A program made the translations under genes and the position numbers. The notes under the pieces are model-generated. The model was not told where the DNA came from. It searched no databases and saw nothing but the letters and a program-made list of their open reading frames with translations. Of a stretch of 64,000 bases of DNA, positions 44,690-64,000 are shown piece by piece. This stretch comes from Verrucomicrobiales bacterium (GTDB taxonomy: Bacteria > Verrucomicrobiota > Verrucomicrobiia > Verrucomicrobiales > DEV007), in assembly GCA_002698785.1 (NCBI GenBank), contig PAAG01000024.1, positions 62,001-126,000 of the forward strand, written 5' to 3'. Position 1 is the first letter of the stretch. Each line of letters opens with the position of its first letter.

Positions 44690-45547
44690 TCACAACCTTC
44701 CCGTGATCAGAGCGATCACGAGTCCGCAAAGAACACCAATTAAGAGGCAACTACAGAGAAAAAGAACGGTATTGAGGCTACTCTTTCGCCTCGGTTTACC
44801 AAATCGGGCAACTACGACGGACAGGTTATCAGCGTTTTCGCCACCAAGTTTTCTAGCTTCTTGAATGTGAAAGCGAGCCCAGTCTTTGAGGTCATACTTT
44901 GGCTGAATATCAATTTTCCATCGCCGCTTTTCCAGAGGCCCCCAAAACCCGTCGGAACAGAGTATGGCGAATCTGCACTTATCAGGGGCATCCTTCATGC
45001 AGCGGAGCTCGGGTTTGCAGCTTTCGACAAACCCTAGCGCGCGAAACACTTCGTTCTTTCCTTTGAAATGCGGAAGCTCTTCTTCAGTAATTTCATTCTG
45101 GTTCACGGCAGCCTGGGCAGCTGAATGATCGAGCGTCCGATGGATGGTCTTCCCGTTTTCGACTAAATAGAGCCGGGAGTCACCCATATGCCCCCAGTAT
45201 AACATCCCATCCCACCGTAACAGGGCTACTACGACTGCCTTGGAATCACCCCCATATTGCTCTCCCGCCTGCACGACTTTTTCATTTGCCTTGTCGAAGA
45301 AATACTGGAGAAAATCTTCTCCCTTAAATTCATCACCACGCGAGAGGGCACCTGTCACATGGTCCCACAAGGTGCCCGCATAATTTACGACAGCTCGAGA
45401 GGCTTCGGCACCACCGCCATGTCCTCCTGCCCCATCACATAAGACGAAGAAGGAAAGACCGTATTCTTTGCTCTCTTCTGCGAACACAGCATCCTGCTGT
45501 TCTTTTCTCGAACCGGGGTCTAAGGCGTAGGCGAAAGTGGAAGTCAT
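44690..45547 (-). CDS. PP2C-type protein phosphatase with C-terminal membrane anchor
   Basis: A 285-residue PPM phosphatase that removes phosphate from Ser/Thr residues. Metal-binding and catalytic motifs are intact: VLCDGAGGHGGGAEAS, WGHMGDSRLYLV, ILCSDGFWG and ADNLSVVVARF. The C-terminus has a single membrane segment (NTVLFLCSCLLIGVLCGLVIALI), so the catalytic domain faces the cytoplasm. It lies 47 bases downstream of the Ser/Thr kinase on the same strand, a standard kinase-phosphatase pair. Confidence 0.9.
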   Translation of the reverse strand: MTSTFAYALDPGSRKEQQDAVFAEESKEYGLSFFVLCDGAGGHGGGAEASRAVVNYAGTLWDHVTGALSRGDEFKGEDFLQYFFDKANEKVVQAGEQYGGDSKAVVVALLRWDGMLYWGHMGDSRLYLVENGKTIHRTLDHSAAQAAVNQNEITEEELPHFKGKNEVFRALGFVESCKPELRCMKDAPDKCRFAILCSDGFWGPLEKRRWKIDIQPKYDLKDWARFHIQEARKLGGENADNLSVVVARFGKPRRKSSLNTVLFLCSCLLIGVLCGLVIALITGRL

Positions 45548-45594
45548 CCTTTCAATCTTAGCTAGGAAGTAGGCGAATCGGTCAAAATGTCGAG

Positions 45595-48363
45595 TCAGGA
45601 TTTTGATTCGGAGACAATCAGCAACTGTCCATTAATCTCTTCGACCCCGAGCACAATACTCTTGTAGGCTGACTCTCCAGAGGGATACCTCGTAAAATTT
45701 GCGGTAAAGCGGATTGTGAACCGCCCATTGTAATAGCTGTAGTCCGGGCCGTTAACAATGGACCAATTGCCGTGCTTGTTTCGGTATTCTCTCACATCCG
45801 CAGCCAGCTTCGATTTCGACCATCGTTCCCCGTAGTAGTTGATACTCGAAGCATATAAGTCACTGTGATCCTTACCATTGTAAGTCGTCTGATTGTTTGT
45901 GCGGATGAATTCATCCACGAGTCGATTTAACGCTGTTTTCCCGGAGCTCGAGATTCCAGAAACTGAGCTGAGCTTTGTTGCGGAAGACATCTCAACAATT
46001 TTCAATTGGTCATTTACGACACGTACCTTCACTGACTTCCTGTAGGTTTCATTCAATTGGGTGTAGCCGGAGGACAATTCTGCCAGGAAAGTAAACGATG
46101 CTGTCCAAGTCTGATTCCCTACAGAAGTTGGCGATACTGAGCTTTCTAGAGAATACGTGCGGTTCGGCCACTTTCTTGCATGTTCGCTCGCTTCACTTCG
46201 CAATTGAAAACTCGAAACCGATCGTCCGTCCTGAAAGACGGTTGATGCAAAATATGACGATTGTCCGGAGCTTCCCGAGTTTCCTGCGCGAATGAAATTT
46301 CCGATAAATGTTGCGACATCAGAAGAAGTGAAACTGACTTTCTCAGAATTTAACTTCGCCAGATCGAGCTTATCCCGGTTGGAGGAAGTCAGTTGAGAGC
46401 GCTTCGAAGAGAAGTCGCCGTATAGATCTCTCCACGCTGCTTTCACCTGATCAGAGGTGTAATAAGCTTTTCCCTCCATGTTTTTTGCAGATTGATAAGC
46501 AGTTTGAAATTCGTCATTCACCTTTTGCGAAGACGAGATACTCGATGATGAGCGAGTTCCAGAACCGCCTGTGCCGCTACTTGCGGTAGAATTTCCTAAA
46601 AAAGGTTTACCGGAGGAGGGTTTGGTCGGAGTTGATGGTTTACTCGTGCCACTCTGGTTCAAGCTATCGAGTTCATCGCGGGCCATGGTAACCAGCCGTT
46701 GCTCATCCGACGTCAATCCCGAGCGGTCCTCGTATTTAAAAAGAAAGCCGGACCAGATATTTTTCTTCCCTTCATTGGTGAGGCTCGGATGTTCAACCGC
46801 GTTCGCTGCTTCCTGATATGCATCCCTGACCGACAGTCCGCCCCCCTGCCCCTGCAGAATCATGTAGCAAGCCAGGATAATTGAGACTAGCGCCAATACT
46901 CCCAGAAACACGAGAATAGGAACCGGATTTGTAGAAGCCTTAGGCTGCGTATTCGCCTTGGTAGTCGTGGAAGTTTCCGGCTGCACCTCTTTGAACTCAG
47001 CTTTCTGCTTTTCAGGACGCGGAGGCGGAGAAGGTGGCTTTTTTTTCTGTGGAGGCGGTTTCCTAGAGGGCGACCGTTGCTCCGGAGGACGCGAATCCTT
47101 TTGAGAAGCAGCCTCAGACGCCGGTATAGAAGGGGGAGAAGTCGTAGAACGTACTTCCTTCTTGGTCCCCTTAATCGGAGGAGGGCTACTCTTCGAGCTT
47201 GAAGCATCAGGCCTACTGGTGATCGGTGGCGGTCCGGTCTTTGGTACTGCAGGGACAACAGCGACTGGAGAGTCATCCTTTGAACGATCTACAACAGTCT
47301 CTTCTGTGTCATTCAACGAATCATCCAGCTCTTCGTCGATACCCGCTTCTTCCCAGCCTTCTGAACTACTTGGCGCAATATGAATCGGAGCCCCTCCTAT
47401 AGAAGCAAACAAATCCGTTTTCCACTCCCCTACAGTCTGTGGTCGATCTGAGACTTTTAATTCGAGCGCCTGGTCAACGGCACGCAGAAAGCCTTCGTCG
47501 TATAGACCCGAATACCCGCCAGCCAGATTTCGAATTTCTTCCTCCTGAAAGCGATCGTTCGCGTCAGGTGGAGCAGCCCCGACGATTGCGTGATAAATTG
47601 TTGCAGCAAGACTGTAGATGTCACTCCATGGACCACACTTCCCTTTCGCGGAAGTTTGTTCAGGAGGAGTGTATCCCCTGGATCGCATTTCCGTGAGCGT
47701 GTCTGTCTGCTCGCTCGTGAAGTAGCGAGCAGATCCGAAATCTATCAACACAGGAAAGACAGAAGCACCATATTCCTGTTTTAATTTTTCATCGGCAGAA
47801 AGCACGATATTCGAAGGTTTGATGTCCCTGTGATAGCAATTCGCAGCATGCAGGGCCTCCAGCGCGTCGCACATCGGTGAGGTAATTTCGGCCAACTCCT
47901 CGCCCGTGAAGTGATTCGCACTCGCCCATCGACTTTCGATCTCGTCTGAAAGAGGAACTCCTTCGATGTATTCCATGACGATGTAGGCGGTGCCGTGTTC
48001 CTCAAAATATTCCTTTATCCCAACGATTGAGGGTTGCCTGGAAAACTTTTCCAGTTTCTTTGCCTCCTCGATGAAGTTCTTCATCGACCAATCGAATGGC
48101 CGGTCATCTCCATTCGAGATAACCTCCTTTTCTGTCATCGAAATGCGAGTCGCATATTGGCGAGGAAAGTTCTCTTTGATCGCGACAAAGCATTCCAGGT
48201 TCTTATCCCATGCCTTGTAAGTAATTCCGAATCCACCGCAACCGATCACCTCCCGAATTTCAAAATTCTTCAGCAACGATTGTCCCGGCTTAAGAAAAGG
48301 GTTTTTCCTGGCCTCAATCCGTCGCCGGCGTTCTGAATCAGTTTCTTTCGATTGTTCTTTCAC
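45595..48363 (-). CDS. membrane Ser/Thr protein kinase with tandem NTF2-like C-terminal repeats
   Basis: A 922-residue receptor-type kinase. The N-terminal kinase domain (about 34-325) has an intact G-loop GCGGFGITY, the VAIKE Lys, YHRDIKPSN (HRD 178-180), DFGSARY (DFG 208-210) and GYTPPEQ. A Pro/Ser/Lys-rich linker (about 370-475) precedes one membrane segment (about 481-503). The extracytoplasmic part is Ser/Thr-rich. Its end (about 690-922) looks like two copies of a roughly 110-residue domain with NTF2/SnoaL-like character (VATFIGNFIRAGN... and LNRLVDEFIRTNN..., each ending in VRVVNDQLKIVE- or VEEINGQLLIVS-type strands). These could sense an envelope ligand. Confidence 0.85.
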   Translation of the reverse strand: MKEQSKETDSERRRRIEARKNPFLKPGQSLLKNFEIREVIGCGGFGITYKAWDKNLECFVAIKENFPRQYATRISMTEKEVISNGDDRPFDWSMKNFIEEAKKLEKFSRQPSIVGIKEYFEEHGTAYIVMEYIEGVPLSDEIESRWASANHFTGEELAEITSPMCDALEALHAANCYHRDIKPSNIVLSADEKLKQEYGASVFPVLIDFGSARYFTSEQTDTLTEMRSRGYTPPEQTSAKGKCGPWSDIYSLAATIYHAIVGAAPPDANDRFQEEEIRNLAGGYSGLYDEGFLRAVDQALELKVSDRPQTVGEWKTDLFASIGGAPIHIAPSSSEGWEEAGIDEELDDSLNDTEETVVDRSKDDSPVAVVPAVPKTGPPPITSRPDASSSKSSPPPIKGTKKEVRSTTSPPSIPASEAASQKDSRPPEQRSPSRKPPPQKKKPPSPPPRPEKQKAEFKEVQPETSTTTKANTQPKASTNPVPILVFLGVLALVSIILACYMILQGQGGGLSVRDAYQEAANAVEHPSLTNEGKKNIWSGFLFKYEDRSGLTSDEQRLVTMARDELDSLNQSGTSKPSTPTKPSSGKPFLGNSTASSGTGGSGTRSSSSISSSQKVNDEFQTAYQSAKNMEGKAYYTSDQVKAAWRDLYGDFSSKRSQLTSSNRDKLDLAKLNSEKVSFTSSDVATFIGNFIRAGNSGSSGQSSYFASTVFQDGRSVSSFQLRSEASEHARKWPNRTYSLESSVSPTSVGNQTWTASFTFLAELSSGYTQLNETYRKSVKVRVVNDQLKIVEMSSATKLSSVSGISSSGKTALNRLVDEFIRTNNQTTYNGKDHSDLYASSINYYGERWSKSKLAADVREYRNKHGNWSIVNGPDYSYYNGRFTIRFTANFTRYPSGESAYKSIVLGVEEINGQLLIVSESKS

Positions 48364-48625
48364 GGCACGGCTCGGTTTATCCCGAAATTCTCAGGGTCTG
48401 TCTACTATCTACGGGTATCTAAGATGAAATGAGATGTCAGCATTTTTCTTTCCAAGAAAAATTACCTACTCGCGTTTTTCGAATAAAGGGAAAGTGACGA
48501 TTCTTATTCTGATCAAGAGTGATGAATTCTTCCATAATTTTCAGCCAGCTCCGCCTTGGACTGGTTGACGGGCATGTCATTTTTGGCCATCGTTCACCAG
48601 ATCGAATTCTGCTCACGACAATCAC
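48364..48625. other. divergent intergenic region of the kinase and lysozyme-like genes
   Basis: 262 bases between two divergent gene starts, AT-rich, with several runs of T. Probably contains both promoters, but I cannot place a -10/-35 pair with confidence. No gene is evident. Confidence 0.4.
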
Positions 48626-50497
48626 ATGAAGTTAAAGCATTATTTTCTCGGTACACTGCTCTGGATTTTCGGATGTCTGGTGGGCTTCTTTGTTCTCCCC
48701 TCGCTGATCAATTCTTCCACTCCTAAGCCCGAACAACCACCTCAGGGAAATCAGCAAAACCCTCCGACAGCTTCTCAAAATGTTTCAAACAATCCGGAGA
48801 AGGTCATTGGCGAAGCAGATGATACAGAAAAGGAAGAAGTGGTTACAGCAACTGAAGGAGAGGAGAATACAAAAATTGAAGCCCCAATCGAAACCGAAGG
48901 TCATCAAAATCTTCCAAGCGATCCTGTCGCCCAGGTGAGACAGGACACAGAAGAAATTCCTTTAGAGGAAATACCTCCCGTTGATGAACCAGTGGCAGAT
49001 ATGCTCGCAGGGTCCCCTCCTCCAGCTGATCTTCTCGGTATGTCCGGCAAACTGATCCGACAAGCAGTCGATGAGCTCAGCATCGGATGCGCGTGGCACC
49101 CTTGGAATTCATTTCCCTCCGCAGGAGCAATAGGACTTCCCTGGTATCAAAGTGATGAGAATCCAAAAGTGCACTACAGTCTCAAAAACTTCCTTGAGTT
49201 TTACGGAAGTCAAAATGATCTGCCACCGATTCCCGCTGAATTCTCAGCAACCCCTCCCTATCGATTAAAAGAACCGAAGGACATCCCAAGTATCCCACGG
49301 CCAATTGCGGACTTTTTTCTTCGGACAACTCAGGAGCAATCTGTTTTCTTACATCACCAACTGCGGGAGAAAAAAGACCTTCTAATTGCAGATCCTCAGA
49401 ATCTGAGTGCTAAGTCTGCCTTCGATACCATGCTTCATTCCCGAGAGGGGTTCGCCCTTCTGGGTGCATACACTTCCCTTTTTGGACTCGGCCTCGAACC
49501 CCAACAGAGCCCCGTGAGCCTACTTGAAGTATTCAAGCGATTCCCTCAGACACCGGCTTCCCCAGAATCCTCATCAGAAGAAGCCTCAAGACAACAGTTT
49601 CTTGCAGCCACACAAGCTACCCTTACACAAGCGCCTGGACCTGAAAATATCCGTAAAGCGCAACTCGATGCATGGAATGCTGCCTTGGAGCGCCTCTCCG
49701 CCCCACCTGAAACTACCGAACCTATAAAAGCGGAACCGGTGGTAACCGAAAATGTATCTCTGGACGAGTTACTCAACTACCCGGGCTTCGCCGAGAAGGC
49801 GGGAAAGAGAATATGGCAGAGTGAATGTGCAGGAACCAAAGCGGGTTTAACTTCTTGGAACAGCGGTGAGGGTTTCGCGTCTTTAGGAATCGGTCACTTC
49901 CTCTGGTATCCCTCTGGTAAGGAGTTCGAATTCGAAGAAAGCTTCCCAGACCTCTTGAAATTCTATCAAGCCAATCACTCAAGATTGCCTCGCCCGATTC
50001 CTCAGTGGCTACTCGAAACTGAAGATTGTCCCTGGAGTACGAAGTCCGAATTTGAGAAAGCGGCCAACGATGCGCGAATGGTACAGCTGCGCGATTACCT
50101 CTACGAGACTGTCCCGCTGCAAACCGAGTTTATCTACGAACGCCTAAAAGCTTCCCGAGCGAAGTTACTCGAAAATACCGATCCTGAGAACAGGGCGCGC
50201 GTCGGACAAGTCTTTGATACACTGCTGAAAACCCCTCCCGGATTTTTTGCTATGTTAGACTACGTCAACTTCAAGGGAGAGGGCACCAGTCCGAAGGAGC
50301 GTTACAACGACGAGGGCTGGGGGCTGCTTCAGGTTCTTGAGAAAATGCCGGAGGACGTTTCTCCGAAAAATGCACACAAAGCATTTTCCACAGCTGCTAC
50401 AGCAACACTGACGCGACGCACGCAGAACAACCCAAAGGATAAGAAATGGCTGAACGGGTGGACAAATCGGACAAGCGCATACGCGAACGATTTTTAA
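48626..50497 (+). CDS. membrane-anchored protein with two tandem lysozyme-like domains
   Basis: A 623-residue protein with an N-terminal membrane anchor (HYFLGTLLWIFGCLVGFFVLP) and a Pro/Glu/Thr-rich linker (about 30-135). Two homologous blocks follow, at about 143-355 and 381-623. The second has IWQSECAGT, LTSWNSGEGFASLGIGHFLWYP and PQWLLETEDCPW; the Glu plus GIGH pattern recalls T4-type lysozyme (Glu then YTIGIGH). The first has the matching AVDELSIGCAWHPWNSFPSAGAIGLPWY, in which GIGH has become AIGL. Wall cleavage or binding is inferred; the fold is not proven. It is transcribed opposite to the flanking kinase and CsgG-like genes. Confidence 0.7.
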   Translation: MKLKHYFLGTLLWIFGCLVGFFVLPSLINSSTPKPEQPPQGNQQNPPTASQNVSNNPEKVIGEADDTEKEEVVTATEGEENTKIEAPIETEGHQNLPSDPVAQVRQDTEEIPLEEIPPVDEPVADMLAGSPPPADLLGMSGKLIRQAVDELSIGCAWHPWNSFPSAGAIGLPWYQSDENPKVHYSLKNFLEFYGSQNDLPPIPAEFSATPPYRLKEPKDIPSIPRPIADFFLRTTQEQSVFLHHQLREKKDLLIADPQNLSAKSAFDTMLHSREGFALLGAYTSLFGLGLEPQQSPVSLLEVFKRFPQTPASPESSSEEASRQQFLAATQATLTQAPGPENIRKAQLDAWNAALERLSAPPETTEPIKAEPVVTENVSLDELLNYPGFAEKAGKRIWQSECAGTKAGLTSWNSGEGFASLGIGHFLWYPSGKEFEFEESFPDLLKFYQANHSRLPRPIPQWLLETEDCPWSTKSEFEKAANDARMVQLRDYLYETVPLQTEFIYERLKASRAKLLENTDPENRARVGQVFDTLLKTPPGFFAMLDYVNFKGEGTSPKERYNDEGWGLLQVLEKMPEDVSPKNAHKAFSTAATATLTRRTQNNPKDKKWLNGWTNRTSAYANDF

Positions 50498-50505
50498 CCG
50501 TGAAC

Positions 50506-51156
50506 TTATCTCGGTCTGCGCGCCTTCTTTAGCGAACGCCGAATCAACGCGAGGAAGATAAGCACGGCAAGGATACATCCACCGATGATCAAATAGAGCC
50601 GAATCTGCCCCTGCGTGTAAAAAGACTGCGTTTTTCGGAGTGCTTCACCTCCCCACAACACCTTAGCGGTTTCTACTTCCTGCACTTGGAGGTTTGCTCG
50701 GACGGAGAAAGAATTGTTCCCAAGTCTCGTGATGTCAATTCTGGTAAAAGCGACAGCATCGGCACCTTGGATGCGACCGAACTTCTGAACCGTCGCCGGA
50801 TCCATGACATCGACGTAGTTGTCATTCCACTCGATTTCACTGAGAACATTGGCGAGCGAGGAATCCGCGCGCGTAAATACTTGGAGACCGGTCTCATCAG
50901 ACAAATTCGAAAGGGTATTTTCTGCCTGTATCGTGAAGTAACCCGAATCAACATCTCGCTGAATGGGTAAGATGGCGACTCCGTTCGTCCCTTCGTTTCC
51001 GAACTCGGCAGCGAACTCACTCGCCACAGCTTCGATTGCCTCCTTGCCCATGGTCTTAATCGCGTCCATTTCGTCGGGCGTGTAGTTTTCTTGAGCAAAG
51101 ACCGACAAGCTACAAAGTAGCAGCCCTGTCGCTATGGTTGCGGAAAAGATTTTCAT
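50506..51156 (-). CDS. CsgG/LpoB-like periplasmic domain protein with C-terminal membrane anchor
   Basis: A 216-residue protein: signal peptide (MKIFSATIATGLLLCSLSVFA), a domain of about 110 residues (VAILPIQRD, DETGLQVFTRADSSLANVLSEIEW, FGRIQGADAVAFTRID), then one membrane segment (LYLIIGGCILAVLIFLALI) and a basic tail. The domain pattern (IAVLP-start, RADxxL, GADAV) resembles CsgG/LpoB-type folds, which in LpoB activate a penicillin-binding protein. Anchoring by a C-terminal helix instead of a lipid is unusual for these. Assignment is by pattern only. Confidence 0.6.
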   Translation of the reverse strand: MKIFSATIATGLLLCSLSVFAQENYTPDEMDAIKTMGKEAIEAVASEFAAEFGNEGTNGVAILPIQRDVDSGYFTIQAENTLSNLSDETGLQVFTRADSSLANVLSEIEWNDNYVDVMDPATVQKFGRIQGADAVAFTRIDITRLGNNSFSVRANLQVQEVETAKVLWGGEALRKTQSFYTQGQIRLYLIIGGCILAVLIFLALIRRSLKKARRPR

Positions 51157-51213
51157 GATTTTAATTCTCTTCGATTAGTAAAGTATAGTTTTGTCAGGTT
51201 TCGCTCCCCGAGA

Positions 51214-52158
51214 TTATTCGACAAACCAATCCTTGTACGCTTCCCGGATCTGCTTATTTCCTTTGAAGCGAAAGGGTTTCTTCTTTTTCTTTCCCTTGTT
51301 GGCTTCTGGCCACTCCTCCAGGTGAGCTCTCCAGAAATTTTCCGTGTGAGGTGCTGCAACAATTTCGATGATCGCCACTTTTGTGTTCTTGTCGTATTTC
51401 ATTTGCCGGACGTGATAGACGCCCTCCAGCTCCTGCGCATATTCGATGATCCTTGCAAGGTGCTGGTTGTCTTTCACATCATGAAACTCTGCTTCCAGAA
51501 CTAAGTGCTTGTGTGCTTTTTCCAGAAGCTTTGCGATGACTTCTTTGACAGCTGCGTCTGCGGATTCCTCTCGAGCGGTTCTTTCGGCTTCATATTGGTC
51601 AGCCATTCGGTCCCCATTCATACGCGATGTGTGGATTGCGAGAATCTCTTCTGAAAGCGGACTATATGCTGTGATCGTAGTTTCAGCCTCAAACAGAGCA
51701 GAGTTCCCCAGCTTGTTCTTCAAGCGAGAGTCTGTCTGGACGTGCACCACAAAATCAGCGTAGCGATCGTTACCCATCTCATGCATGCGCTTGGGGCTCA
51801 GTTCTTCTTCTTCGAGTTGAATGGCAGATGGAAACACTCGGAAGTGAACGTCCGAAAACCGCTGTTTCATCAATTTATCAACGTCTGCGGCCTGCGGAGA
51901 AAGCACAAGAAGCATGCGCATACAACCAAGCTCCGTAATCTGGACGCCTTCGGTCAGTGCGTCCTGATCTACATCAGGAGGAGTGGTAAATGGGGCAACT
52001 CCAGAGTCGGGCTTTTCAGTAGCTGGAGACGGTTCATCATTCCCCGCTGAAATCTCTCCCGTGTCCGAAACTACGTCAGCAAAGAGTTGACTTCCAGATC
52101 CCGCAATCAAGATCGAGACAAGCACGACAGTGGGCAGTTGGAGTAATTTCTGTTTCAT
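51214..52158 (-). CDS. secreted hypothetical protein, 314 aa
   Basis: A signal peptide (MKQKLLQLPTVVLVSILIAG) is followed by an acidic linker and about 240 residues of alpha/beta character with no recognised family. It contains ITELGCMRMLLVLSPQAADVDKLM and VKEVIAKLLEKAHKHLVLEAEF, and the C-terminus is strongly basic (GKKKKKPFRFKG). It lies 23 bases downstream of the divergent PP2C-like gene and 57 bases upstream of the CsgG-like gene, on the same strand. A periplasmic role alongside these envelope genes is inferred. Confidence 0.6.
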   Translation of the reverse strand: MKQKLLQLPTVVLVSILIAGSGSQLFADVVSDTGEISAGNDEPSPATEKPDSGVAPFTTPPDVDQDALTEGVQITELGCMRMLLVLSPQAADVDKLMKQRFSDVHFRVFPSAIQLEEEELSPKRMHEMGNDRYADFVVHVQTDSRLKNKLGNSALFEAETTITAYSPLSEEILAIHTSRMNGDRMADQYEAERTAREESADAAVKEVIAKLLEKAHKHLVLEAEFHDVKDNQHLARIIEYAQELEGVYHVRQMKYDKNTKVAIIEIVAAPHTENFWRAHLEEWPEANKGKKKKKPFRFKGNKQIREAYKDWFVE

Positions 52159-52181
52159 AATTCTAAGAGGGAATGCAGATT

Positions 52182-53261
52182 TCAGTTTTCCGGTTCAGTC
52201 GGCAAATTTTCTTCAACAGTGGGTTCCCGGGACTCCGTCTCGCCCTCGACGTCAGGCTCAGAACCAGGGTTTTCTATCTCTTCCTGTTCGACGATCGGAT
52301 TCGCTTCAATTTCACGGTCAAATGCGCCCGATTCCTCCAAATATATCATTGCGAATTTCCAGGCAACAAATCCAAGCAATGCAATTCCTGCCACAGTGAG
52401 AAGAAACCCAAAAACTTTGCGTAGCAAGGACATGCGGCTCACTGAATCTTCGACCTGAACCGAATCTGTCTCTCCTTCCTTAACAATCGAGTTCGATTCA
52501 GCCCCAGTCTCTCTCAACTCATCTTGTGACGTAGTCTCAGGAGGATCGAGTTCAACTCCTAGAAACGTGATATCGTCGAGCAACTCCCGTTTCCCGATCC
52601 AATTCGCGATGGTCCCTTTCTCAAACGAGACACGCTCACCTGAAACTAACAGGTCACGAATCCGAGAGATACCTACCATTTCCTCCAAGCCATCTGAGAG
52701 CAGCAGTAAACGATTCACAGATTCCCGTTCGAAAGTTTCAAGGTCAGAAGTTTGGGAGGCGATGGTAGATTCTCCCATGTAAACCCCTTCCCGGAGATGC
52801 CTTACCTCGGGGACATCTCCATCCCTTGGAAGGATAGAACTGCCCCCCGCCCTGGTGGTATCGCTAAAGCGAAAGCACAAGCCCGAATCCAAACCCACAT
52901 ATGCAGCACAGTCCCCCACGCCACCCATGTAGACTTTACGATTTCCGACAAGAACGAATACAACTGCGGCCCAGCAATTGTCAGACTCGTCTACCATTCG
53001 CTGATTGGCTACCATCATAATATCAACAAGGATACGATCACCCATACCAGCATCTACTTCCTTGCCCAATGTCGCCTTCCCCCTCGATTCCAAATAAGAA
53101 TCAACAGCGTTTATCAAGACACCCGCACTACCAGGTTGCGCCACTGACGGGGCATCAGCCACTAGTCCGATCCAACATCCCTCGCCTAACGAAAACGAAA
53201 CATACCCGTCACCATTGGTTCCGCCGGGATTCATTGGATAGCTGGCGGCGAATGGTTTCAT
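52182..53261 (-). CDS. divergent PP2C-like protein with membrane anchor (probably inactive or altered)
   Basis: A 359-residue protein with a recognisable PPM fold but altered catalytic motifs. The first motif reads TNGDGYVS (usually xNEDx), the second LVADAPSVAQPG (the DGHGG Asp kept, the following glycines lost), and the third GVGDCAAYV (usually GDSR). The later LLLLSDGLEEMV and DDITFLGVEL are intact. A membrane segment (SLLRKVFGFLLTVAGIALLGFVAWKFAMIYL) near residue 280-305 is followed by a short Glu/Pro-rich tail. Loss of the first metal-binding motif makes activity doubtful. Next to two pseudokinases on the same strand. Confidence 0.75.
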   Translation of the reverse strand: MKPFAASYPMNPGGTNGDGYVSFSLGEGCWIGLVADAPSVAQPGSAGVLINAVDSYLESRGKATLGKEVDAGMGDRILVDIMMVANQRMVDESDNCWAAVVFVLVGNRKVYMGGVGDCAAYVGLDSGLCFRFSDTTRAGGSSILPRDGDVPEVRHLREGVYMGESTIASQTSDLETFERESVNRLLLLSDGLEEMVGISRIRDLLVSGERVSFEKGTIANWIGKRELLDDITFLGVELDPPETTSQDELRETGAESNSIVKEGETDSVQVEDSVSRMSLLRKVFGFLLTVAGIALLGFVAWKFAMIYLEESGAFDREIEANPIVEQEEIENPGSEPDVEGETESREPTVEENLPTEPEN

Positions 53262-55999: not shown

Positions 56000-57979
56000 T
56001 CACTTTCGTTCCCAAAGGGGTTTATCGGCCTTCTTTCCTCCCTTTACTCCAGAAACGTTTGGCTTTCTCCCAACGCTTGGAGTCTTCTCGGCACTCCCTT
56101 CGTCAGCGTCAAGAGAAGAATCCAAGCCGTCTGATAATACTGGTCGAACAACTACAAAGGTGAAGGGGAGCTCTGCCCCACTTTTCGATTCCATGGAAAG
56201 AATATCCGTGCCTTTTGTTTCCGAACTACGGGGAAGCCGGTATTCCACATCAGGTCCGATCTTGCCTTGATTCCTGTCTCGCTTCTCAAGGCGATCCAAA
56301 AACTCAACGGCTTCGCTACGGGTAACAAACTGAACTTTTTCCGGATTGCCTCTGGCTTCTTGATTCATCAGATCTCCCCACTCTCCACGACTCACGGGGT
56401 ATCTGGAGAAACCAACAACCAACTCCGAATCTTTCCGTTTCGGTGTTTCAAGAACAACGGTGTCTAGGCTTGGTTTAATTGCGATTGGTTTGATAACTGT
56501 TTCTGCCTTCTCGGATACCACTTCCGTTTCGTCAGCCGCCAGTGCATCGACGGAGCCAATCTTAACTTTTTCATCTCCTGAAGAATTTCCCGGAATACTC
56601 TTCTCACTTTCTTGAAGACCGTCACCGATTCCATCTGATACAACTTCGACAGGCTTCGGCTGCGATCCACCAACAGTCGTCACATTTTCTTCTTCACTCT
56701 CTGAAGTCTCGCCGACACTTGCAGTGGGCGACCCGACTCCTGTCGGTTTTGAACCTTCCACCAGGACTACTTCACCACTTTGATCTTCTACAGAAACTTT
56801 TGTCTCTTCTATGGCCCCACCGGTAATCGCCCCTTCCCCGTGCTGGTTACTCTCCGAAGTTCCTCCGCCGGTTGAACCATTTGCAACGACAAGAGGGGTT
56901 TGTTCGACTGTTCCCGAAGTATTCTCTCCCTGTTCGACAGTCCCATCCACTTCGCTTTCGAAACTCCCCTGATCGTTAAACCACTCTCTAAACCCATCAG
57001 GATCATCTTGAACAACTTCGTTGCCACCACTGCGCCCTCCATCTCCCGCTGGCTTGCGGGATACAACGGCAAAAATCGCGAGGACAATTAGTAAGAACAG
57101 CGATCCAAGAACGATTACTTTCCTATCCAACGTGAATGGAAATGGAGCGGAGCCCGAATCATTAGTACGCACTTCCTCCGGCTCAGCCGGTCCCTTAGGA
57201 AGGACAGCATCTGTCACAAGGCCCGTTTCTTTTTCCAAATCAGAAGTGCCTTTCTGCAGAAAAGAGTCAATCGAAACGGGATTACCATTATTATGCTTTC
57301 GCACGGCGGCTCCGGCCGCCGCCGGTAAAGGTCCTGGGAGATCACAAAGAAACTCGACCAGATTCCTTATGTCTCCTGTAATGGTTGGTGGATCGGATGG
57401 CTGCATCCCACCTGAAAAAAAATTGTGATCTGGACGAACTTTCTCTAACTGCCCGAGAACCAGGTCAGTAAGGCCCGGTGGCAGAAAAACCGAACGCCCA
57501 CCAGAATCAGTTGCGACTAAGTCGGAGTCAAAATACCCGAGTGCCCGTCTGTTTTCATGCACCTCGCGAAGGGTTGCAACAAGGCCATTGACCAAAATGT
57601 CTGTATTCGCCTCGCGGTCAGCAATCTCCGAAAGAGAATGAAATCCCTCCAGATCCTGACCATCGAGTTCGAAAGCAATGTTTCCACCAGAGTGAAAATC
57701 GACTGCAGTCAGCACATTATTTAAAGCACACGAACTCGCTTTCCCATTCTGCACCCATTTCCGAAATTCTTCGTGGGTCTGCGTTACAAAATTCAATTCA
57801 GCCGGGAGAAACAGAAGACCACATTTCGCCTCAGTCTGTACGTTCAAGGCGGACCACAACTCAAAACCGGCCGGATGCAAAAGAACCGGTCTGTGAAGGT
57901 CGAACCGATCAAATACGCGGGCCTGTTCCTGGAAACGGTGAGTCATCATCTCCTTCAAACAAATAGGGTGTACTATCAT
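56000..57979 (-). CDS. pseudokinase-like / membrane / FGE-like fusion protein
   Basis: A 659-residue protein. Residues 1-235 have features of a strongly degenerate kinase C-lobe (EVHENRRALGYFDSDLV in the HRD region, SVFLPPGL like the DFG-APE area). One membrane segment lies at about 287-305, followed by a long Ser/Thr/Glu/Gly-rich low-complexity region. The last ~105 residues (about 517-620) read GFSRYPVSRGEWGDLM, FVTRSEAVEFLDRLE and EYRLPRSSET, matching the FGE/SUMF1 (formylglycine-generating) fold. It is too short and lacks catalytic Cys, so it is a relic or binding module. The start could also be ATG 57946, beside an AAGGAG. Confidence 0.65.
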   Translation of the reverse strand: MIVHPICLKEMMTHRFQEQARVFDRFDLHRPVLLHPAGFELWSALNVQTEAKCGLLFLPAELNFVTQTHEEFRKWVQNGKASSCALNNVLTAVDFHSGGNIAFELDGQDLEGFHSLSEIADREANTDILVNGLVATLREVHENRRALGYFDSDLVATDSGGRSVFLPPGLTDLVLGQLEKVRPDHNFFSGGMQPSDPPTITGDIRNLVEFLCDLPGPLPAAAGAAVRKHNNGNPVSIDSFLQKGTSDLEKETGLVTDAVLPKGPAEPEEVRTNDSGSAPFPFTLDRKVIVLGSLFLLIVLAIFAVVSRKPAGDGGRSGGNEVVQDDPDGFREWFNDQGSFESEVDGTVEQGENTSGTVEQTPLVVANGSTGGGTSESNQHGEGAITGGAIEETKVSVEDQSGEVVLVEGSKPTGVGSPTASVGETSESEEENVTTVGGSQPKPVEVVSDGIGDGLQESEKSIPGNSSGDEKVKIGSVDALAADETEVVSEKAETVIKPIAIKPSLDTVVLETPKRKDSELVVGFSRYPVSRGEWGDLMNQEARGNPEKVQFVTRSEAVEFLDRLEKRDRNQGKIGPDVEYRLPRSSETKGTDILSMESKSGAELPFTFVVVRPVLSDGLDSSLDADEGSAEKTPSVGRKPNVSGVKGGKKADKPLWERK

Positions 57980-58063
57980 CTTTTGCTAGACCAGTAAAAA
58001 GCCTTGGTCTAAACAGGAAAGTAAGAGGGAATTCATTTTTCCGGTTCTTTTCCTCAAACCGCT

Positions 58064-58984
58064 ATGGATCAGAAAACAAAAGAGGAGTATGCAGGGCATT
58101 TCCTGACCTTGTTGCGCGTCTGGGACGCGTGGATTGACGGTGACACTGCCGTCATTCCCCCGGAGACTGAGCAATTCTTTATCGAGCTCACCGACAAGTA
58201 TTTTCGCGATGCACTCTCTACCAAGTTCAAAAAAGAAAAAGGTCGTTTGGAGGAACTCGGTGGTAATGAATTACAAGGAGAAGCTGCGTGGCAATGCATG
58301 AGAGCCTATTTCAATGTAAAGCGCCCTCGAGCGAAGTATTCAATTCTCCATTCGATATTTGCAGAAGCACAGGCAAGTGCTGCACGAAGCGACTCTGGTG
58401 ACGACGAAGCACAACTATCGGATATCATCTTTATTCTCCTGAATCGCTACAAATTGCAGTGCCGCTCTGCGGTGAGAGACTTCTGGGCACCTGAAGCTCT
58501 CGGAACCACAGGGCAGCGTTGGAATACCGAATCCGGCGATGCTCCAATACAAACGGAACGAGGTGAATCACGACCACGCTCCAAATTCGACCTTCTGCAA
58601 ACTGAAGCCGCCACCCTTTCGCCTGAGGAAGAAAACGAATATCATGAGATCGCTCAATCAGCCGTGAATGCTTTTTTCCCTTCTCTCTCTGATTCGCAAA
58701 AAGCGGGGCTCTATGCGATTTTTTGCAGGAACAATGCTGGCGAGAAACTGCTTTATAACGATTCCCGGATCGGGAAATTCGTCGATGTAAAGCAAGCGCA
58801 ATTCTACGAAGGGCGAAGGAAAGCGATCAAAGAATTAATCGAATCGTTTCGGGATGGTCCAATTTGGGAAAACGAAGACAATGTCGGAAGAATTCGACTC
58901 GAAATACTGCTGGAAGAAAAACTGCTCGATGAATCTTTTGAATGGTTTCACCGGAAAACGAAAGAGGAGGTTCCCTCTACTTAA
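58064..58984 (+). CDS. hypothetical protein, possible sigma-like regulator
   Basis: A 306-residue soluble protein of high helical content and no membrane segment. A segment of about 60 residues near the end (FFPSLSDSQKAGLYAIFC..., then IGKFVDVKQAQFYEGRRKAIKEL) is loosely like sigma-70 region 4 and its helix-turn-helix, and AYFNVKRPRAKYSILHSIFAEAQ may be region-2-like. The resemblance is weak, so this remains a hypothesis. It starts the divergent plus-strand cluster, 85 bases from the pseudokinase gene, and is followed after 54 bases by the PemK-like gene. Confidence 0.5.
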   Translation: MDQKTKEEYAGHFLTLLRVWDAWIDGDTAVIPPETEQFFIELTDKYFRDALSTKFKKEKGRLEELGGNELQGEAAWQCMRAYFNVKRPRAKYSILHSIFAEAQASAARSDSGDDEAQLSDIIFILLNRYKLQCRSAVRDFWAPEALGTTGQRWNTESGDAPIQTERGESRPRSKFDLLQTEAATLSPEEENEYHEIAQSAVNAFFPSLSDSQKAGLYAIFCRNNAGEKLLYNDSRIGKFVDVKQAQFYEGRRKAIKELIESFRDGPIWENEDNVGRIRLEILLEEKLLDESFEWFHRKTKEEVPST

Positions 58985-59038
58985 CTGATCCTAGTAAACA
59001 GGGATGTATGTTCTTAATCCCAATCCTATTTCTATCTC

Positions 59039-59737
59039 ATGAACAAAGAATCTGATGATTCGAGGTGGGCTGACGAGTGGAATGAACTCGTAACCGACCT
59101 GAACGACACCATGGAAGACGAAAAAGCCATGGTAAAGGAGAGCGCGTTTTCTTCCTCAAATACGAATCCGCACTTGGCGGCTAAAGGAAAATCTGTCGCG
59201 AACGCATTGCTGCGTCAAATCAGGGAATCCATTCGATATGAGGGGGCTACCGGTTCGGCCAGCCAATCGGTTTTTGTTTCTTCGGCGCCTGCGTCACAAG
59301 CAAAAGTCGAAGTGAGCAAAGGAGACATCATACAGCTAGATCCAAGTCTAGACCCAAGCTGGTGCCGCCCCGTTTATGTTCTAATCATGGATCAGACTGA
59401 TGAAAAGATCACGATCATTCCGTTCGGTCCGTTAAGCCTTCCGGCAACTGACACGGAGCTCGCGACAAACCTTGGAGAACGCGGGCTGGATGTTCTCTGC
59501 GTCTGGAATGTATCCAAAATCGAACGGAAACATTTGCAGCGACATTTCGCCATTGCCCATGCAGATGATGAATTTATCTCAGAAGTAGAATCACTCCTTG
59601 AGGCGATCAGATCCAAGTCCCCCGCACCGGAGCCGCTCCAAGCCAGGGTGGGCCCCTCTCGATTCGGAGTCGGAGATGCAAAACAGGATTACCTTGACCA
59701 CGAAGAAGGTCTCCTTGCCGGAATCTCTACGGATTGA
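59039..59737 (+). CDS. hypothetical protein with PemK/SH3-like central segment
   Basis: A 232-residue soluble acidic protein. The central part (KGDIIQLDPSLDPSWCRPVY, KITIIPFGPLSLPATD, VLCVWNVSKIERKHLQRHF) resembles the SH3-like barrel of PemK/MazF proteins, but the catalytic residues are not evident. It lies between the possible sigma-like gene and the SEDS gene on the same strand (54- and 39-base gaps). A partner or antagonist of the sigma-like protein is a plausible guess; no function is proven. Confidence 0.5.
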   Translation: MNKESDDSRWADEWNELVTDLNDTMEDEKAMVKESAFSSSNTNPHLAAKGKSVANALLRQIRESIRYEGATGSASQSVFVSSAPASQAKVEVSKGDIIQLDPSLDPSWCRPVYVLIMDQTDEKITIIPFGPLSLPATDTELATNLGERGLDVLCVWNVSKIERKHLQRHFAIAHADDEFISEVESLLEAIRSKSPAPEPLQARVGPSRFGVGDAKQDYLDHEEGLLAGISTD

Positions 59738-59776
59738 TTCCCTTATTCAATAACAGGAAATCCAAAAGATCACTAA

Positions 59777-62700
59777 ATGCAATCACTGACTCTGTTCTAC
59801 CTATTCCCCGCGATTGCATTTCTGATCGTATCCGGAATCTGGCTGGCTAACCGCAGCCCGGGAGTTCTTGGATGGCTACCAATCGCCGCATGTTATTTGT
59901 GCAGCGGATTAGTTCTCTTCCTCGGCGGATGCCACCAGATGGCACACGTTCAATTGAAAGGTGTAGAAATAGACTTGGGTACACCTGAGTCTCCGCGAGA
60001 AATCATGATTGGTGGCCCGCCGGAAGACGCTATCGAGCAGCCAGCCCCAGCTTTTGAGGTTTCTGGCTATCCTTACGATGCGTTGCGTTTAAAGCTTCAC
60101 GGAGACGGTCTCGTTATCTCACCGGGAAGCGGATTCGATCGCTCGATTGTCGTCCAAAGTGGAGAGGAAATTGTCCCTTTGGTGAATTCAATCCCTGCCC
60201 TCTACCACCTCCAGGATCAGGATATCATCGAAATAGGCTCAGATGCATCCACTCAAAAATGGACCCTTGGACGTGCCGCCGACCACCTTACCCCGACTAC
60301 CGGCAACGAGCCGCGCTGGGTAGGCAGAGACGGCACAGGAGTCGCTTTTTCCGGGAACCTCCCCCCTTCGGTTGTTGGCCTCCAAGTAAAATCGGGAAAT
60401 CTGATTGTGACTCGCGGGCCAGGTTTATCCGGGCAAATAAAGGTAATCATCAACGGGCAGACTCTAGAAGGTGAGCAGGAAAGTTGGTCTCTTCCGTATG
60501 ACTCTGGCAAAACCACGTTAGAAATCAGCACTCCCGATTTGCTAGCGGGGAACATGACAGTCAATCTTGGAGTGGAATCAGCTTCCCTGTCATGGAAGTC
60601 AGCATCTGCCGAGAATCCACCATCCCTGTTACAGTCAGCTATTTTGAGAACAGGTGATACTATCACGATGGGGGGAGGCCCTGACGACGAGATACGCGTG
60701 TTCGGTTTACTGTCCGGGTTTTTCGAATTAACCCTGAACCCCGACAAAAATATTGTCGTCAGCCTTTCCAAAGCCGGAATCGAGGCAATGGAAGAAGGAA
60801 AAGGGCTGTATGCTGACCACCGAATTTCCCGATCTTTTGCTGAATACAAAAATGGCAAGATCATCAACAAAGAAGACGGCTGGACACTGGGAACTCCGGA
60901 ATCTCCCACCGGAGGCAAACTAATTTTCAGAATTCAGTCCAATGCCTCAGGTAGGGAAGAAGAGCGCAACGCGCCAGCAGAAGTCAGTGGAGACCTACCA
61001 ACAGAGCCAGAGCTTTCGTCCGACAGCGTCGTAGCTGAAATACGTTGGCTCAGTAGCCCCCAGACAGAGTGGGTGCTTCCCAACAGGCAAGTCACCCTCC
61101 CCATGTTTCCGGACCATACCATTTCACTATTTACACGAAGAAATTTCAGACAAGCTGCATTTCCGTTGAAACGGGCAAGTGGTTATCCATCCAGTGTGAC
61201 GAGTTGTCTTTTCTCCGGACTTCAGAATGAAGATTTCAACTCGCTGAGCCTATTACAAACGGATCCCGGCGTGAGAGTTTTTCGAGACGGAAAACCGCTG
61301 CGTGCTGCCAACGGAGAGCGCCCGCTCGGATTACTCGAGCCAAACGCTGAGATCTCTTTTCTTCAGCTTTTGACTACAAACAACGATGTGCGAACCGGCG
61401 GCTCAGGGTCTCTCCTTTCAGATATTCTGCGGTTAGCAACCCGAGATAAGTTCGCCAAATTCGAACTAACCACCCGTCCCAACGGAAACTCTTCTCGCCG
61501 CATACTGGCTGTGGATTTCATCAATCCCGAGATTCAAGCAATTCCCATGGGCGATATCAAACATGGAAAGAAAATTGCCGAGTCTGACGACCGCAGTATT
61601 TCTTTCGGAGTAAACGAGGTTTCCGGGTTCTCGACCGAATCTTATCAAGTGCGCTTCAAGGCTTTGACTTCATGGTTCCGAAAAGCAAATGCGAAAGTCA
61701 TCTTGCAGTCGGATATCACAGTCCAGGACGACTACCGGACGCAGGAGATTGACTACAGCACTCCCTTCACTATCGGCGACCGCGACAGGTTGAGACTGGA
61801 GATTTCAAAACGAACTATTCCTTTCAAGACGATCTTCTGGCTTCTGACTGGGGGACTCATACTAATCAGTGTTTTCTTCGTTCACCGAAATGATATCGGT
61901 TGGTATTTCCTTCTGTTCGGTATCGCCTTCCTCACCTGCAGCAGAGTCCTTTTTGCCCAGGCGGCAATGGTGAACCCTCCTTATAGTTTCGAAGCAGCAT
62001 CGACTGCAACATTCGCAGTCATTATCATTCCCCTGATGGTGGCCGTCATGGCCATCGCGCTTCCACTCATCATGCCCGGCCGACTGGAAGCCCAACTCAG
62101 GCAATGGCAAAACGGTGCCCCTTTTACAAAATTGGCGATCGCCGCAGGGATAGTGTTTGCGATTCGAGTTGCATTCCTGTTTCTCGGCTTCAAAGAATCA
62201 GTCAATCTCGGCGTCGGACGGTTTGCACTCTCAATTATTTCAGTTCCTGCACACATCATTATCTTCAGTCTGGGTTGCGCACGGCTATTTGCAGAAAGGA
62301 AATCAAGCGGTTCCTACGAATTTTCCTTAATCGGAAAATTCTTTACCTTCGTTTGCGCATTGTTCTTTTTCCAATTTGCTACGGCCTTTCTTGTGAGTGA
62401 TGTAGGTCTCTTCCTCTACCTGCTGCCTCAAGTTCTAATCGTCGCCCTGATTGGACTCTCCATTTGCATTGAAGCGACATCCAAGCTGAGACGATTTGAC
62501 GTGGATAAAACGGAAGTGGTTTCCCAGGCGCTTACCGCCGTCTTACTTGTGCTCCCGCTCGCTTTTACCATCTGGACTTTCACCTCGCCTAGGATTCTGT
62601 ATTCCATGCCAGTGCTGAGTGGCATTCTTGCAACCGATCAGGAGATCGCCACAGGGAGTACGGAACTCCGCATTCTTCAATTCATTAACGAAGAATATTT

Positions 62701-63184
62701 GATAAAACTCGGAACTGATACGGCCGAAAGAATCGCGCAGGACCATGCAATCATGGAAAACTATGCTCGGCGGGGACTGTGGGGCGAAGGCTATCTCCAA
62801 GTCGACGTCATTCATGCAAAGCGAAACACGTCGCTGAACGACAATGTGTCAGCCATATTTATCTTTGCTCAATTCGGCATTCTTGGCGCACTCGCCGTGG
62901 CACTGGCGTATTTATCCGTTGTCTTTTCCACCTCACAAGCTGCTGACGGAATTAACGGACCTGTGGGCTGGGCCGCGGTGACTGCCAGCCTCACTTTTTG
63001 CCTCGCAAGTGTGTATATGATGGCGGCCAATTATGGTTTCCTCCCTTTTACAGGGCGGAACATGTATCTTCTTGGGCTTAACAGTAAGAGCGACCTCATC
63101 GAATCGCTTGGCGTACTATTTTTCTGTATCCTTGCACTGGTTTACGCAGCACATCGCAAAAAAATCAGCGCTGTACCGGAATGA
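59777..63184 (+). CDS. SEDS (FtsW/RodA/SpoVE-like) protein with large FHA-like insert
   Basis: An 1135-residue membrane protein. Two N-terminal helices (LFYLFPAIAFLIVSGIWLA; GWLPIAACYLCSGLVLFLGG) are followed by about 620 residues of beta-rich sequence with repeats resembling FHA domains (REIMIGGPPEDAI... LVISPGSG; TITMGGGPDDEIRVFG). It then resumes with eight or more helices from about residue 685. SEDS hallmarks appear late: FLVSDVGLFLYLLPQVL (Asp near 875), RGLWGEGYL, NDNVSAIFIFAQFGILGA and ANYGFLPFTGRNMYLL (the GLLPxTG motif). SEDS proteins polymerise peptidoglycan glycan strands. FHA-like domains bind phosphothreonine, but the usual Arg/Ser/His residues are not evident here. Confidence 0.75.
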   Translation: MQSLTLFYLFPAIAFLIVSGIWLANRSPGVLGWLPIAACYLCSGLVLFLGGCHQMAHVQLKGVEIDLGTPESPREIMIGGPPEDAIEQPAPAFEVSGYPYDALRLKLHGDGLVISPGSGFDRSIVVQSGEEIVPLVNSIPALYHLQDQDIIEIGSDASTQKWTLGRAADHLTPTTGNEPRWVGRDGTGVAFSGNLPPSVVGLQVKSGNLIVTRGPGLSGQIKVIINGQTLEGEQESWSLPYDSGKTTLEISTPDLLAGNMTVNLGVESASLSWKSASAENPPSLLQSAILRTGDTITMGGGPDDEIRVFGLLSGFFELTLNPDKNIVVSLSKAGIEAMEEGKGLYADHRISRSFAEYKNGKIINKEDGWTLGTPESPTGGKLIFRIQSNASGREEERNAPAEVSGDLPTEPELSSDSVVAEIRWLSSPQTEWVLPNRQVTLPMFPDHTISLFTRRNFRQAAFPLKRASGYPSSVTSCLFSGLQNEDFNSLSLLQTDPGVRVFRDGKPLRAANGERPLGLLEPNAEISFLQLLTTNNDVRTGGSGSLLSDILRLATRDKFAKFELTTRPNGNSSRRILAVDFINPEIQAIPMGDIKHGKKIAESDDRSISFGVNEVSGFSTESYQVRFKALTSWFRKANAKVILQSDITVQDDYRTQEIDYSTPFTIGDRDRLRLEISKRTIPFKTIFWLLTGGLILISVFFVHRNDIGWYFLLFGIAFLTCSRVLFAQAAMVNPPYSFEAASTATFAVIIIPLMVAVMAIALPLIMPGRLEAQLRQWQNGAPFTKLAIAAGIVFAIRVAFLFLGFKESVNLGVGRFALSIISVPAHIIIFSLGCARLFAERKSSGSYEFSLIGKFFTFVCALFFFQFATAFLVSDVGLFLYLLPQVLIVALIGLSICIEATSKLRRFDVDKTEVVSQALTAVLLVLPLAFTIWTFTSPRILYSMPVLSGILATDQEIATGSTELRILQFINEEYLIKLGTDTAERIAQDHAIMENYARRGLWGEGYLQVDVIHAKRNTSLNDNVSAIFIFAQFGILGALAVALAYLSVVFSTSQAADGINGPVGWAAVTASLTFCLASVYMMAANYGFLPFTGRNMYLLGLNSKSDLIESLGVLFFCILALVYAAHRKKISAVPE

Positions 63185-63211
63185 AGATAACCGTTTTCCC
63201 ATTATAATGAC

Positions 63212-64000
63212 ATGAGTGATTCGGCAACGCTCGACACCAAAGTCGAAGACATAAACATAGGTCCCCGCACCATTCGAATAGCGGCACTGGTGGCTGCCTC
63301 GGCGATTGTGTTCGTTTTTGTTTTTCTGTTCCTGAATCAATCGTCTGTTTCTGAGAGAGAGTTTTACCAGCCAGACGGATATATCGAGCGAGTTCAGGAT
63401 CTTATCGATTCCCACCGCTTGGAATACATTCCTCCCACGCAGGAATCGATTGCCGAACAACCTTGGGGCCGCATCGAATTCGTGGAAGATCCTGAGGGAA
63501 TTTCTCCAGAGAAAGTGCGCCTTCAAAACGACTTCTTTAACGAAAGCCGTCGGATTCAGGAGGACATAGAACAGTTCAACGAATCAGGCGAAGGAATCTT
63601 CACAGTCAGGAAAAGACGCGACCGCGAAACTGGAGAAATGAGAGCGGATATTCGTTTCGACCATTCTTCCTACAACTTCTTTCTTCCCTACCCGCAACGT
63701 CCACCAATGGACAGCAAGTTTTCTTTCGGCGGTGAAGAGCTCCCCACCCTCGGGGGAGATGGAATCGCCCTCGGATTCACTCCACTCGATGAAACAGTTA
63801 CTGCGGCTGACCCTGATGCCATTATCGCATTACCACTGAGAAAGTGGTTTCAGCCCGGCCCAAAGGATGGTGGCTACTATCAAGCACTCGGATACAACCT
63901 CCTCGAGAGCGGAACGGGAGCTGTCATTAACCTGAGAGCGACAAAAGATGGAACTGTTCTCCGCGTCTTCAAGCCCCGCCGGTTCTTTCTTTTTATCAAT
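63212..64000 (+). CDS. bitopic membrane protein, possible PBP partner of the SEDS protein (partial)
   Basis: An open frame from ATG 63212 to the window edge (263 codons). A short acidic cytoplasmic start (MSDSATLDTKVEDINIG) precedes one membrane helix (IRIAALVAASAIVFVFVFLFL), and the rest is probably periplasmic and polar. By position it is where the transpeptidase partner of a SEDS protein is often encoded, but no SxxK, SxN or KTG motif is visible in this fragment. The family cannot be named. It starts 28 bases after the SEDS gene, so cotranscription is likely. Confidence 0.55.
   Translation, partial: MSDSATLDTKVEDINIGPRTIRIAALVAASAIVFVFVFLFLNQSSVSEREFYQPDGYIERVQDLIDSHRLEYIPPTQESIAEQPWGRIEFVEDPEGISPEKVRLQNDFFNESRRIQEDIEQFNESGEGIFTVRKRRDRETGEMRADIRFDHSSYNFFLPYPQRPPMDSKFSFGGEELPTLGGDGIALGFTPLDETVTAADPDAIIALPLRKWFQPGPKDGGYYQALGYNLLESGTGAVINLRATKDGTVLRVFKPRRFFLFIN

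Follow-up and report, generated by a model that had tools for sequence, protein, structure and literature searches.

In a bacterium of the order Verrucomicrobiales, a gene cluster of 32 kb encodes a putative SEDS-type polymerase, a predicted class B PBP and several kinase-like proteins and phosphatases, and is best explained, with a probability that we hold to be moderate, as an accessory peptidoglycan synthase module (SEDS-bPBP) equipped with its own kinases and phosphatases. This reading is based on the profile homology of the SEDS protein, the catalytic motifs of the PBP, the constant adjacency of the two genes, and the co-occurrence of two neighbouring genes, PSK1 and X314, with them. Additional support comes from the position of PSK1 and PPP2 beside the pair in four further loci, from a polysaccharide deacetylase domain in the SEDS loop of two relatives (G247 and G422), from the retention of canonical SEDS genes elsewhere in the genome and from the precedent of the pstP-rodA-pbpA-pknA-pknB locus (PMC6554272).

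The window, that is, the whole stretch of 64,000 nucleotides analysed here, corresponds to bases 62001-126000 of a contig of 140,724 bases in a genome of 7.0 Mb, and the 15.7 kb to its right were also analysed. Region 44690-64000 (19 kb) holds about the left 60% of the cluster, and all the open reading frames named there by an initial annotation, made from the sequence alone, are present and intact, arranged in tight divergent runs. Rightwards from 44690 come PPP1, STK1 and LYS, followed by the minus-strand run PSK2-PSK1-PPP2-X314-LPO, from which the plus-strand run Y306-Z232-SEDS-PBP-OMPA diverges, with gaps of 27-54 bp. According to the gap table, the two runs share an intergenic region of 84 bp (57980..58063), in which no sigma-70-like site was found. 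The window edge cuts the PBP gene, the partner of SEDS, and the extension beyond 64000 that the initial annotation called for supplies the rest of this class B PBP (63212 to 65704) plus another seven genes, the last of them reaching about 76487. Elsewhere in the window, three sulfatase-like genes lie close together (19823-21379, 25813-27306 and 27331-29493), clusters of this kind being common in polysaccharide-degrading Verrucomicrobiota.

The core gene of the module, encoded at 59777..63184 (+), specifies a protein of 1135 aa that we identify as a very divergent SEDS-type polymerase from profile-profile comparison, the motifs of 10 orthologues and its topology, in which two TM helices precede a periplasmic insert of 634 aa and a SEDS core of 1+10 TM helices. 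The Pfam model of the FtsW/RodA family (PF01098) does not match this protein, while it does find the two ordinary SEDS genes of the genome (FtsW and RodA), which are located on other contigs; the SEDS-PBP pair would thus be a third, very divergent one beside the normal FtsW and RodA. When hhalign set the alignment of the 10 orthologues against 17 canonical FtsW/RodA sequences, the match reached P 7.7e-8 (Prob 94.5), and the controls stayed clean, with P 0.09 for the reversed alignment and 0.2-0.27 for AmtB, an unrelated polytopic protein. The canonical HMM also matches the orthologue from genome G495 (E 1.7e-4). In the profile-profile alignment, three motifs of the orthologues fall in register with canonical ones: (S/K/Q)DxG with PDLG, L(N/C)D with the catalytic Asp of HTDF, and P(F/L)TG(R/K)NxxxLGLNS with LPxTGxxLPFxSYGGS. 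Residue D1022 in loop 4 (codon 62840..62842, +), aligned with the HTDF Asp (Asp262 of Escherichia coli RodA), and D875, the Asp of DxG, are invariant across the 10 orthologues; functional roles have been described for Asp262 and Asp159 of E. coli RodA (PMC10449877). The claim of a SEDS polymerase made in the initial annotation is therefore borne out by these comparisons.

The equivalents of W102, Q111, E114 and K117 of E. coli RodA are not clear in the window protein, which has GFKESVNLGVGRFALSI, and a Q.S motif at this type of site is kept only in the compact-type relatives described below. Since residues of this type are not universal definers of the SEDS family, their absence affects membership less than function: SEDS activity remains plausible, though perhaps in an altered form. 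The AF2 model of the protein (pLDDT 55, with the loop 4 region under 50) shows ten TM helices after the last extra helix of the insert. A search of the PDB with this low-confidence model returned match lists in which no SEDS chain appears, a result that, with loop 4 so poorly modelled, speaks neither for nor against a SEDS identity.

Residues 49-682, which make up the insert, are placed outside the cell by the predicted topology, and the short inside loops carry basic residues. Loop 4 is periplasmic in SEDS proteins generally, and counting back from it through the ten TM helices and the extra helix leaves the insert in the periplasm. Within the insert, residues 167-268 (60275..60580, +) are predicted by Foldseek and VIA to form an FHA-fold domain, matching about twenty FHA structures over 80-90 residues, with a Foldseek probability of up to 0.96 and a VIA Z of about 6. 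Such a Z alone is weak, and the fold is accepted because many FHA entries agree on one and the same stretch; in the predicted model, then, the FHA domain appears real as a fold. In the orthologue alignment, the residues that bind pThr are not conserved, GR being found in the window protein only and GS/GA in the orthologues, with SxxH absent, and the SEDS protein of G495 is shorter and lacks the FHA region. Given the periplasmic topology and the loss of the pThr-binding residues, the domain is probably no phospho-reader and probably has a structural or glycan-facing role. Thus, of the FHA-like SEDS polymerase in the initial annotation, the fold stands as a prediction, and the parallel with an FhaA-like phospho-reader falls. 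A better candidate for a cytosolic FHA protein is the FHA-TM-trypsin protein encoded past the window. An FHA domain common to PBP and SEDS could not be shown.

The same insert houses a different domain in the compact-type SEDS proteins, namely a polysaccharide deacetylase of the NodB type (Pfam 9.5e-19 in G247, gene L009:2869-6939; 3.5e-31 in G422, gene C69:18193-21651). Polysaccharide deacetylases are a class of enzymes acting outside the cell, and their presence in this insert supports its periplasmic placement. Compared with NodB-type deacetylases (PF01522), the domain is here fused within a SEDS polymerase, whereas the window protein lacks it and has the FHA fold instead.

The gene crossing the window edge (63212..64000, +, continuing to window-equivalent position 65704) is likewise a core gene, and its product reads as the class B PBP partner of SEDS. 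It matches the Pfam Transpeptidase model (6.7e-7), its profile finds MrdA in the PDB (2.2e-4), and it keeps all three catalytic motifs, SxxK, SSN (SxN) and KTG. Past the window lie the genes for OMPA, PSK3, a VanX-like M15 dipeptidase, an FGE-sulfatase (SUMF1) protein, a zinc-ribbon/trypsin protein, the FHA-TM-trypsin protein and a LysM/YkuD L,D-transpeptidase. OMPA (L003:2738-3256) matches ZorB models non-specifically. In loci of the compact type, the genes after PPP2 encode a small TM protein and then an OmpA/MotB-like one (L058:10590-11917; L009:14660-16297). Together with the ZorB matches of OMPA, this makes a MotAB-like pair possible.

The signalling part of the cluster begins with PPP1 (44690..45547, -), a PP2C-type Ser/Thr phosphatase with a C-terminal TM anchor (263-281) and intact metal-binding Asp motifs, which matches Pfam PP2C_2 (1.7e-8) and the NCBIfam Stp1 model (6.8e-35, below the equivalog cut-off of that model). 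Next to it, STK1 (45595..48363, -) has the features of an active Hanks-type Ser/Thr kinase (Pfam Pkinase 2.8e-32, with HRDIKPSN and DFG), followed by one TM helix (481-499) and a periplasmic C-terminal part of about 420 residues that has no Pfam domain. PPP2 (52182..53261, -), a core gene, encodes a divergent PP2C with a TM helix and an acidic C-terminal tail, whose Pfam PP2C_2 match (6.2e-5) scores 23.1, just under the cut-off of 24, and whose metal Asp ligands, in DAP, GD, (S/T)DG and DD, are conserved in its orthologues. The active-looking kinase and phosphatase and the divergent second PP2C reported in the initial annotation agree with these matches.

The two membrane pseudokinases that it also described hold only in part, as kinase-like proteins. 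Pfam kinase models match neither PSK1 nor PSK2. PSK1 (53307..55892, -), another core gene, has two N-terminal TM helices and a C-terminal kinase-like domain, recognised from an alignment of five orthologues in which CTD...D, DFGSY and a C-terminal RP are conserved (D711, D716 and D747-G749-S750), the Asn of the catalytic loop is replaced by Asp, and the Lys of VAIK is K or R. Because it keeps the catalytic Asp and the Asp of DFG, with D711, D716 and D747 invariant, the term pseudokinase is uncertain for this protein. By hhalign, PSK1 is related to an 896-aa protein of G247 (P 1.7e-6); its predicted structure (pLDDT 44) is unusable. PSK2 (56000..57979, -) has a degenerate cytosolic region whose likeness to kinases is judged by eye only, a TM helix (288-306) and a periplasmic C-terminal stretch with a short BLAST match (E 0.001) to a 406-aa protein of locus L006 encoded divergently upstream of SEDS. 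A third pseudokinase, PSK3, is encoded just past the window and combines a Pkinase match (2.7e-22), in which HRD is changed to HCG, with four PEGA domains and an SH3_3 domain. Pfam finds no PASTA domains in the kinases of the locus, and those of the G471 island carry PG_binding_1 domains; together, PG_binding_1 in G471 and PEGA plus SH3_3 in PSK3 fit what would be expected from cell-wall sensors. One Ser/Thr kinase of the G471 island (L053:8044-9765) is an odd fusion, ending at its C-terminus in a domain of ribosomal protein L7/L12 (Pfam 3e-15).

The remaining neighbours are less readily classified. LYS (48626..50497, +), a TM-anchored protein of 623 aa, is a neighbour outside the conserved core, since its C-terminal half belongs to a single-domain family that is widespread and also present in genomes lacking SEDS. 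Its initial description as a tandem lysozyme-like part of the module was not upheld, with no match in Pfam, PDB or PHROG and a family missing from the conserved set. LPO (50506..51156, -), a secreted or TM-anchored protein of 216 aa whose orthologues adjoin X314 in G471, G495, G537 and G450, had been taken for a CsgG/LpoB-like protein, an identity left unsupported by Pfam and by a four-sequence profile searched against the PDB, neither of which gave a match. X314 (51214..52158, -) is a secreted protein of no known family whose occurrence follows that of the SEDS gene, and no relation between LPO and X314 was detectable when they were compared. The SEDS run opens with Y306 (58064..58984, +), a soluble protein of 306 aa with a non-significant PHROG match to a transcriptional activator (E 0.005). 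Its C-terminal part reads like sigma region 4, which makes a sigma-factor-like regulator a weak possibility, and it has no detectable relation to the protein found at the same place in G495. Z232 (59039..59737, +), soluble and 232 aa long, has a conserved counterpart in G495 immediately upstream of SEDS, as indicated by phmmer (7e-10) and by an iterated match.

How far the module is conserved was assessed by searching 387 genomes of the order Verrucomicrobiales for SEDS, with a profile, and for PSK1, and 357 of the order for X314. The SEDS gene is present in 10 of the 387 genomes, distributed over five genera. This spread is visible only by profile searches: a single-protein BLAST in 36 relatives returned nothing. 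An earlier profile built from two sequences, run on 388 genomes across the phylum, found only the genome of the window and one other of the ten. Conserved synteny, the test named beforehand in the initial annotation, is observed. PBP adjoins SEDS in all ten loci, with small ORFs or genes intervening in G455, G485 and G495 (in G455, at L051:13862-14626, a protein resembling REP-associated transposases), and PSK1 and PPP2 directly follow PBP in four further loci belonging to two families (G495, G422, G513 and G247). PSK1 occurs in six of the 387 genomes, five of which are SEDS carriers (p 2e-8, a value that ignores phylogeny), and in all five PSK1 and PPP2 share the SEDS locus. X314, in turn, occurs in six of the 357, again with five SEDS carriers among them (p 3e-8, likewise ignoring phylogeny). 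The sixth PSK1 genome, G547, is a 68%-complete MAG whose short contig shows a PSK1-PPP2-PSK3-PSK3-SUMF run in the same order as in G495; PPP2 orthologues thus stand beside PSK1 in G495, G422, G513, G247 and G547. The module is real, conserved, rare and unusual.

Two types of locus can be distinguished. The compact type, found in G247 and in the same-genus genomes G422 and G513, consists of SEDS, PBP, PSK1, PPP2, a TM protein and an OmpA-like protein, in this order, and closes with a seventh family. The large type comprises the window, G495, G471, G485, G455, G523 and G537, where kinases, SUMF1, X314/LPO and trypsin genes lie nearby or elsewhere in the genome, as far as the contigs are long enough. 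G495 repeats most of the window set (Z232, SEDS, PBP, PSK1, PPP2, two PSK3-like kinases, SUMF, X314 and LPO), with most of these genes on one strand and in one stretch. PSK1 was not detected genome-wide in the SEDS-PBP carriers G455, G471, G485, G523 and G537, nor was a PPP2-like gene seen near their SEDS-PBP pair. In G471 and G485, the pair is adjoined by caspase (Peptidase_C14) and CHAT proteins (L053:12658-14490, L054:812-4195 and L055:824-3775). In the tree, which has some long branches, the SEDS protein of the window clusters with genes of another family and not with its own genus, indicating that the module has been shuffled by transfer or differential loss and that genes found side by side again and again reflect more than descent within a single lineage. 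The module gave zero matches in plasmid and viral collections.

What these observations show is gene content, sequence divergence, active-site motifs, co-occurrence and adjacency. From them we infer a scheme for the enzymatic activities, for the action of the kinases on the synthase, and for the signal and physiological role of the system, in which phospho-control of peptidoglycan synthesis would best explain the locus. The SEDS protein would polymerise lipid II, its product being cross-linked by the class B PBP encoded next to it, while the periplasmic insert of SEDS, be it an FHA fold or a polysaccharide deacetylase, would modify, position or regulate the nascent glycan. STK1, PSK1, PSK2 and PSK3, with cytosolic kinase or kinase-like domains tied through TM helices to periplasmic parts, would sense the state of the envelope. 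STK1, PSK1 and the pseudokinases would set the activity of the synthase by phosphorylation, and the membrane-anchored PPP1 and PPP2 would reverse it.

Counting against this module reading are the lack of clear counterparts to the RodA residues that surround the donor and acceptor sites, a structure search that, on a low-confidence model, did not confirm the TM core, the five SEDS-PBP loci without PSK1, and the signalling set of G450, a genome in which X314, LPO, an FHA-trypsin protein and a kinase were found and a SEDS gene was not, so that the signalling part may exist without SEDS. In G450, X314, LPO and FHA-trypsin adjoin a protein that reads as TIR, with the kinase and an FHA protein nearby (L093:2261-7523). 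These genomes are what a rather unlikely alternative would draw on, according to which the SEDS-bPBP pair and the kinase, FHA, trypsin and SUMF genes are separate systems sharing one island, the kinases signalling to proteases or caspases. Such a view would also account for the mixed sets of kinase, SUMF, FHA, trypsin and caspase genes in G471 and G485, and for the SEDS-PBP pairs of G455, G523 and G537, where no kinases are found nearby in the available DNA, two of the contigs being very short. It fits poorly, however, with the position of PSK1 and PPP2 directly after PBP in four loci of two families, with PSK1 almost never occurring without SEDS, and with the G495 genes lying mostly on one strand in one stretch.

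We consider it unlikely that the locus is a conflict or defence island, in which kinases and proteases would sense envelope damage and SEDS-PBP would reinforce or rebuild the wall against phage or bacteria. The patchy distribution (10/387), the grouping of the window SEDS with another family, and the caspase, CHAT and TIR-like proteins encoded nearby in relatives would suit such an island, as would the matches of the STK1 kinase domain to defence kinase models and of OMPA to ZorB models, both of which are non-specific. PADLOC, however, finds no complete anti-phage system, its matches being generic ones to kinase, trypsin and OmpA, and no toxin or nuclease is recognised in the window module. 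Still less probable is that the protein is a SEDS relative with a different action, for example as polymerase or ligase of another lipid-linked glycan, and that it works with the PBP-like protein on a surface polymer that is not peptidoglycan. The very low similarity, the loss of several RodA residues, the extra TM helices and the huge periplasmic inserts can be read in that sense, but the catalytic Asp and the DxG Asp are invariant, the partner keeps SxxK, SSN and KTG, the SEDS-bPBP pairing is a hallmark of peptidoglycan synthases, and a deacetylase insert suits a GlcNAc polymer.

The proposed phospho-controlled SEDS-bPBP module has its closest known counterpart in Actinobacteria, where pstP, rodA, pbpA, pknA, pknB (a PASTA kinase) and the FHA genes fhaA/fhaB are linked in one locus (PMC6554272), so that the parallel originally drawn with PknB-PstP-FHA-RodA-PbpA is a fair one. 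Both loci bring together a Ser/Thr kinase, a PP2C, a SEDS polymerase, a class B PBP and an FHA domain. Contrary to the actinobacterial locus, however, the one described here has a SEDS protein of a different subfamily, unseen by PF01098 and carrying its FHA fold in the periplasm, several kinase-like proteins devoid of PASTA domains, two PP2Cs, and SUMF, trypsin, OmpA and VanX-like neighbours, and it is accessory in its order and belongs to a diderm phylum. With the RodA-PBP2 elongasome (PMC10449877) it shares a SEDS gene lying next to one for a class B PBP, the catalytic Asp of loop 4, the DxG Asp and the PBP motifs; it differs in the residues mentioned above, in three extra TM helices and the large insert, and in being an extra pair beside the normal FtsW/RodA. 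The vWA-MoxR and related conflict systems of multicellular bacteria (PMC7159879) likewise have islands that combine domains of the kinase, FHA, trypsin, caspase and FGE types, whereas here no vWA-MoxR or VMAP core is recognised and the centre is a SEDS-PBP pair; FtsW is not mentioned in the text on those systems (PMC7159879). In the openly licensed literature we found no description of the locus, in line with its initial designation as undescribed, and no SEDS protein with a deacetylase or FHA-fold insert.

The control of SEDS-bPBP synthases by kinases and phosphatases is known from Actinobacteria. A similar pairing is seen here in Verrucomicrobiales, which are diderm, where it forms an accessory module around a SEDS subfamily missed by standard annotation. 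Tentatively, and as a somewhat unlikely possibility, it may represent a horizontally spread peptidoglycan "writer" that brings its own kinase-phosphatase switch and a built-in domain for modifying or sensing the glycan, and that builds a wall of distinct chemistry, to serve either a special structure or defence. To our knowledge, there is no precedent for a SEDS polymerase with a deacetylase or FHA-fold periplasmic domain; such a protein, with either domain in its loop, would, if true, couple glycan synthesis and its modification or regulation in one polypeptide.
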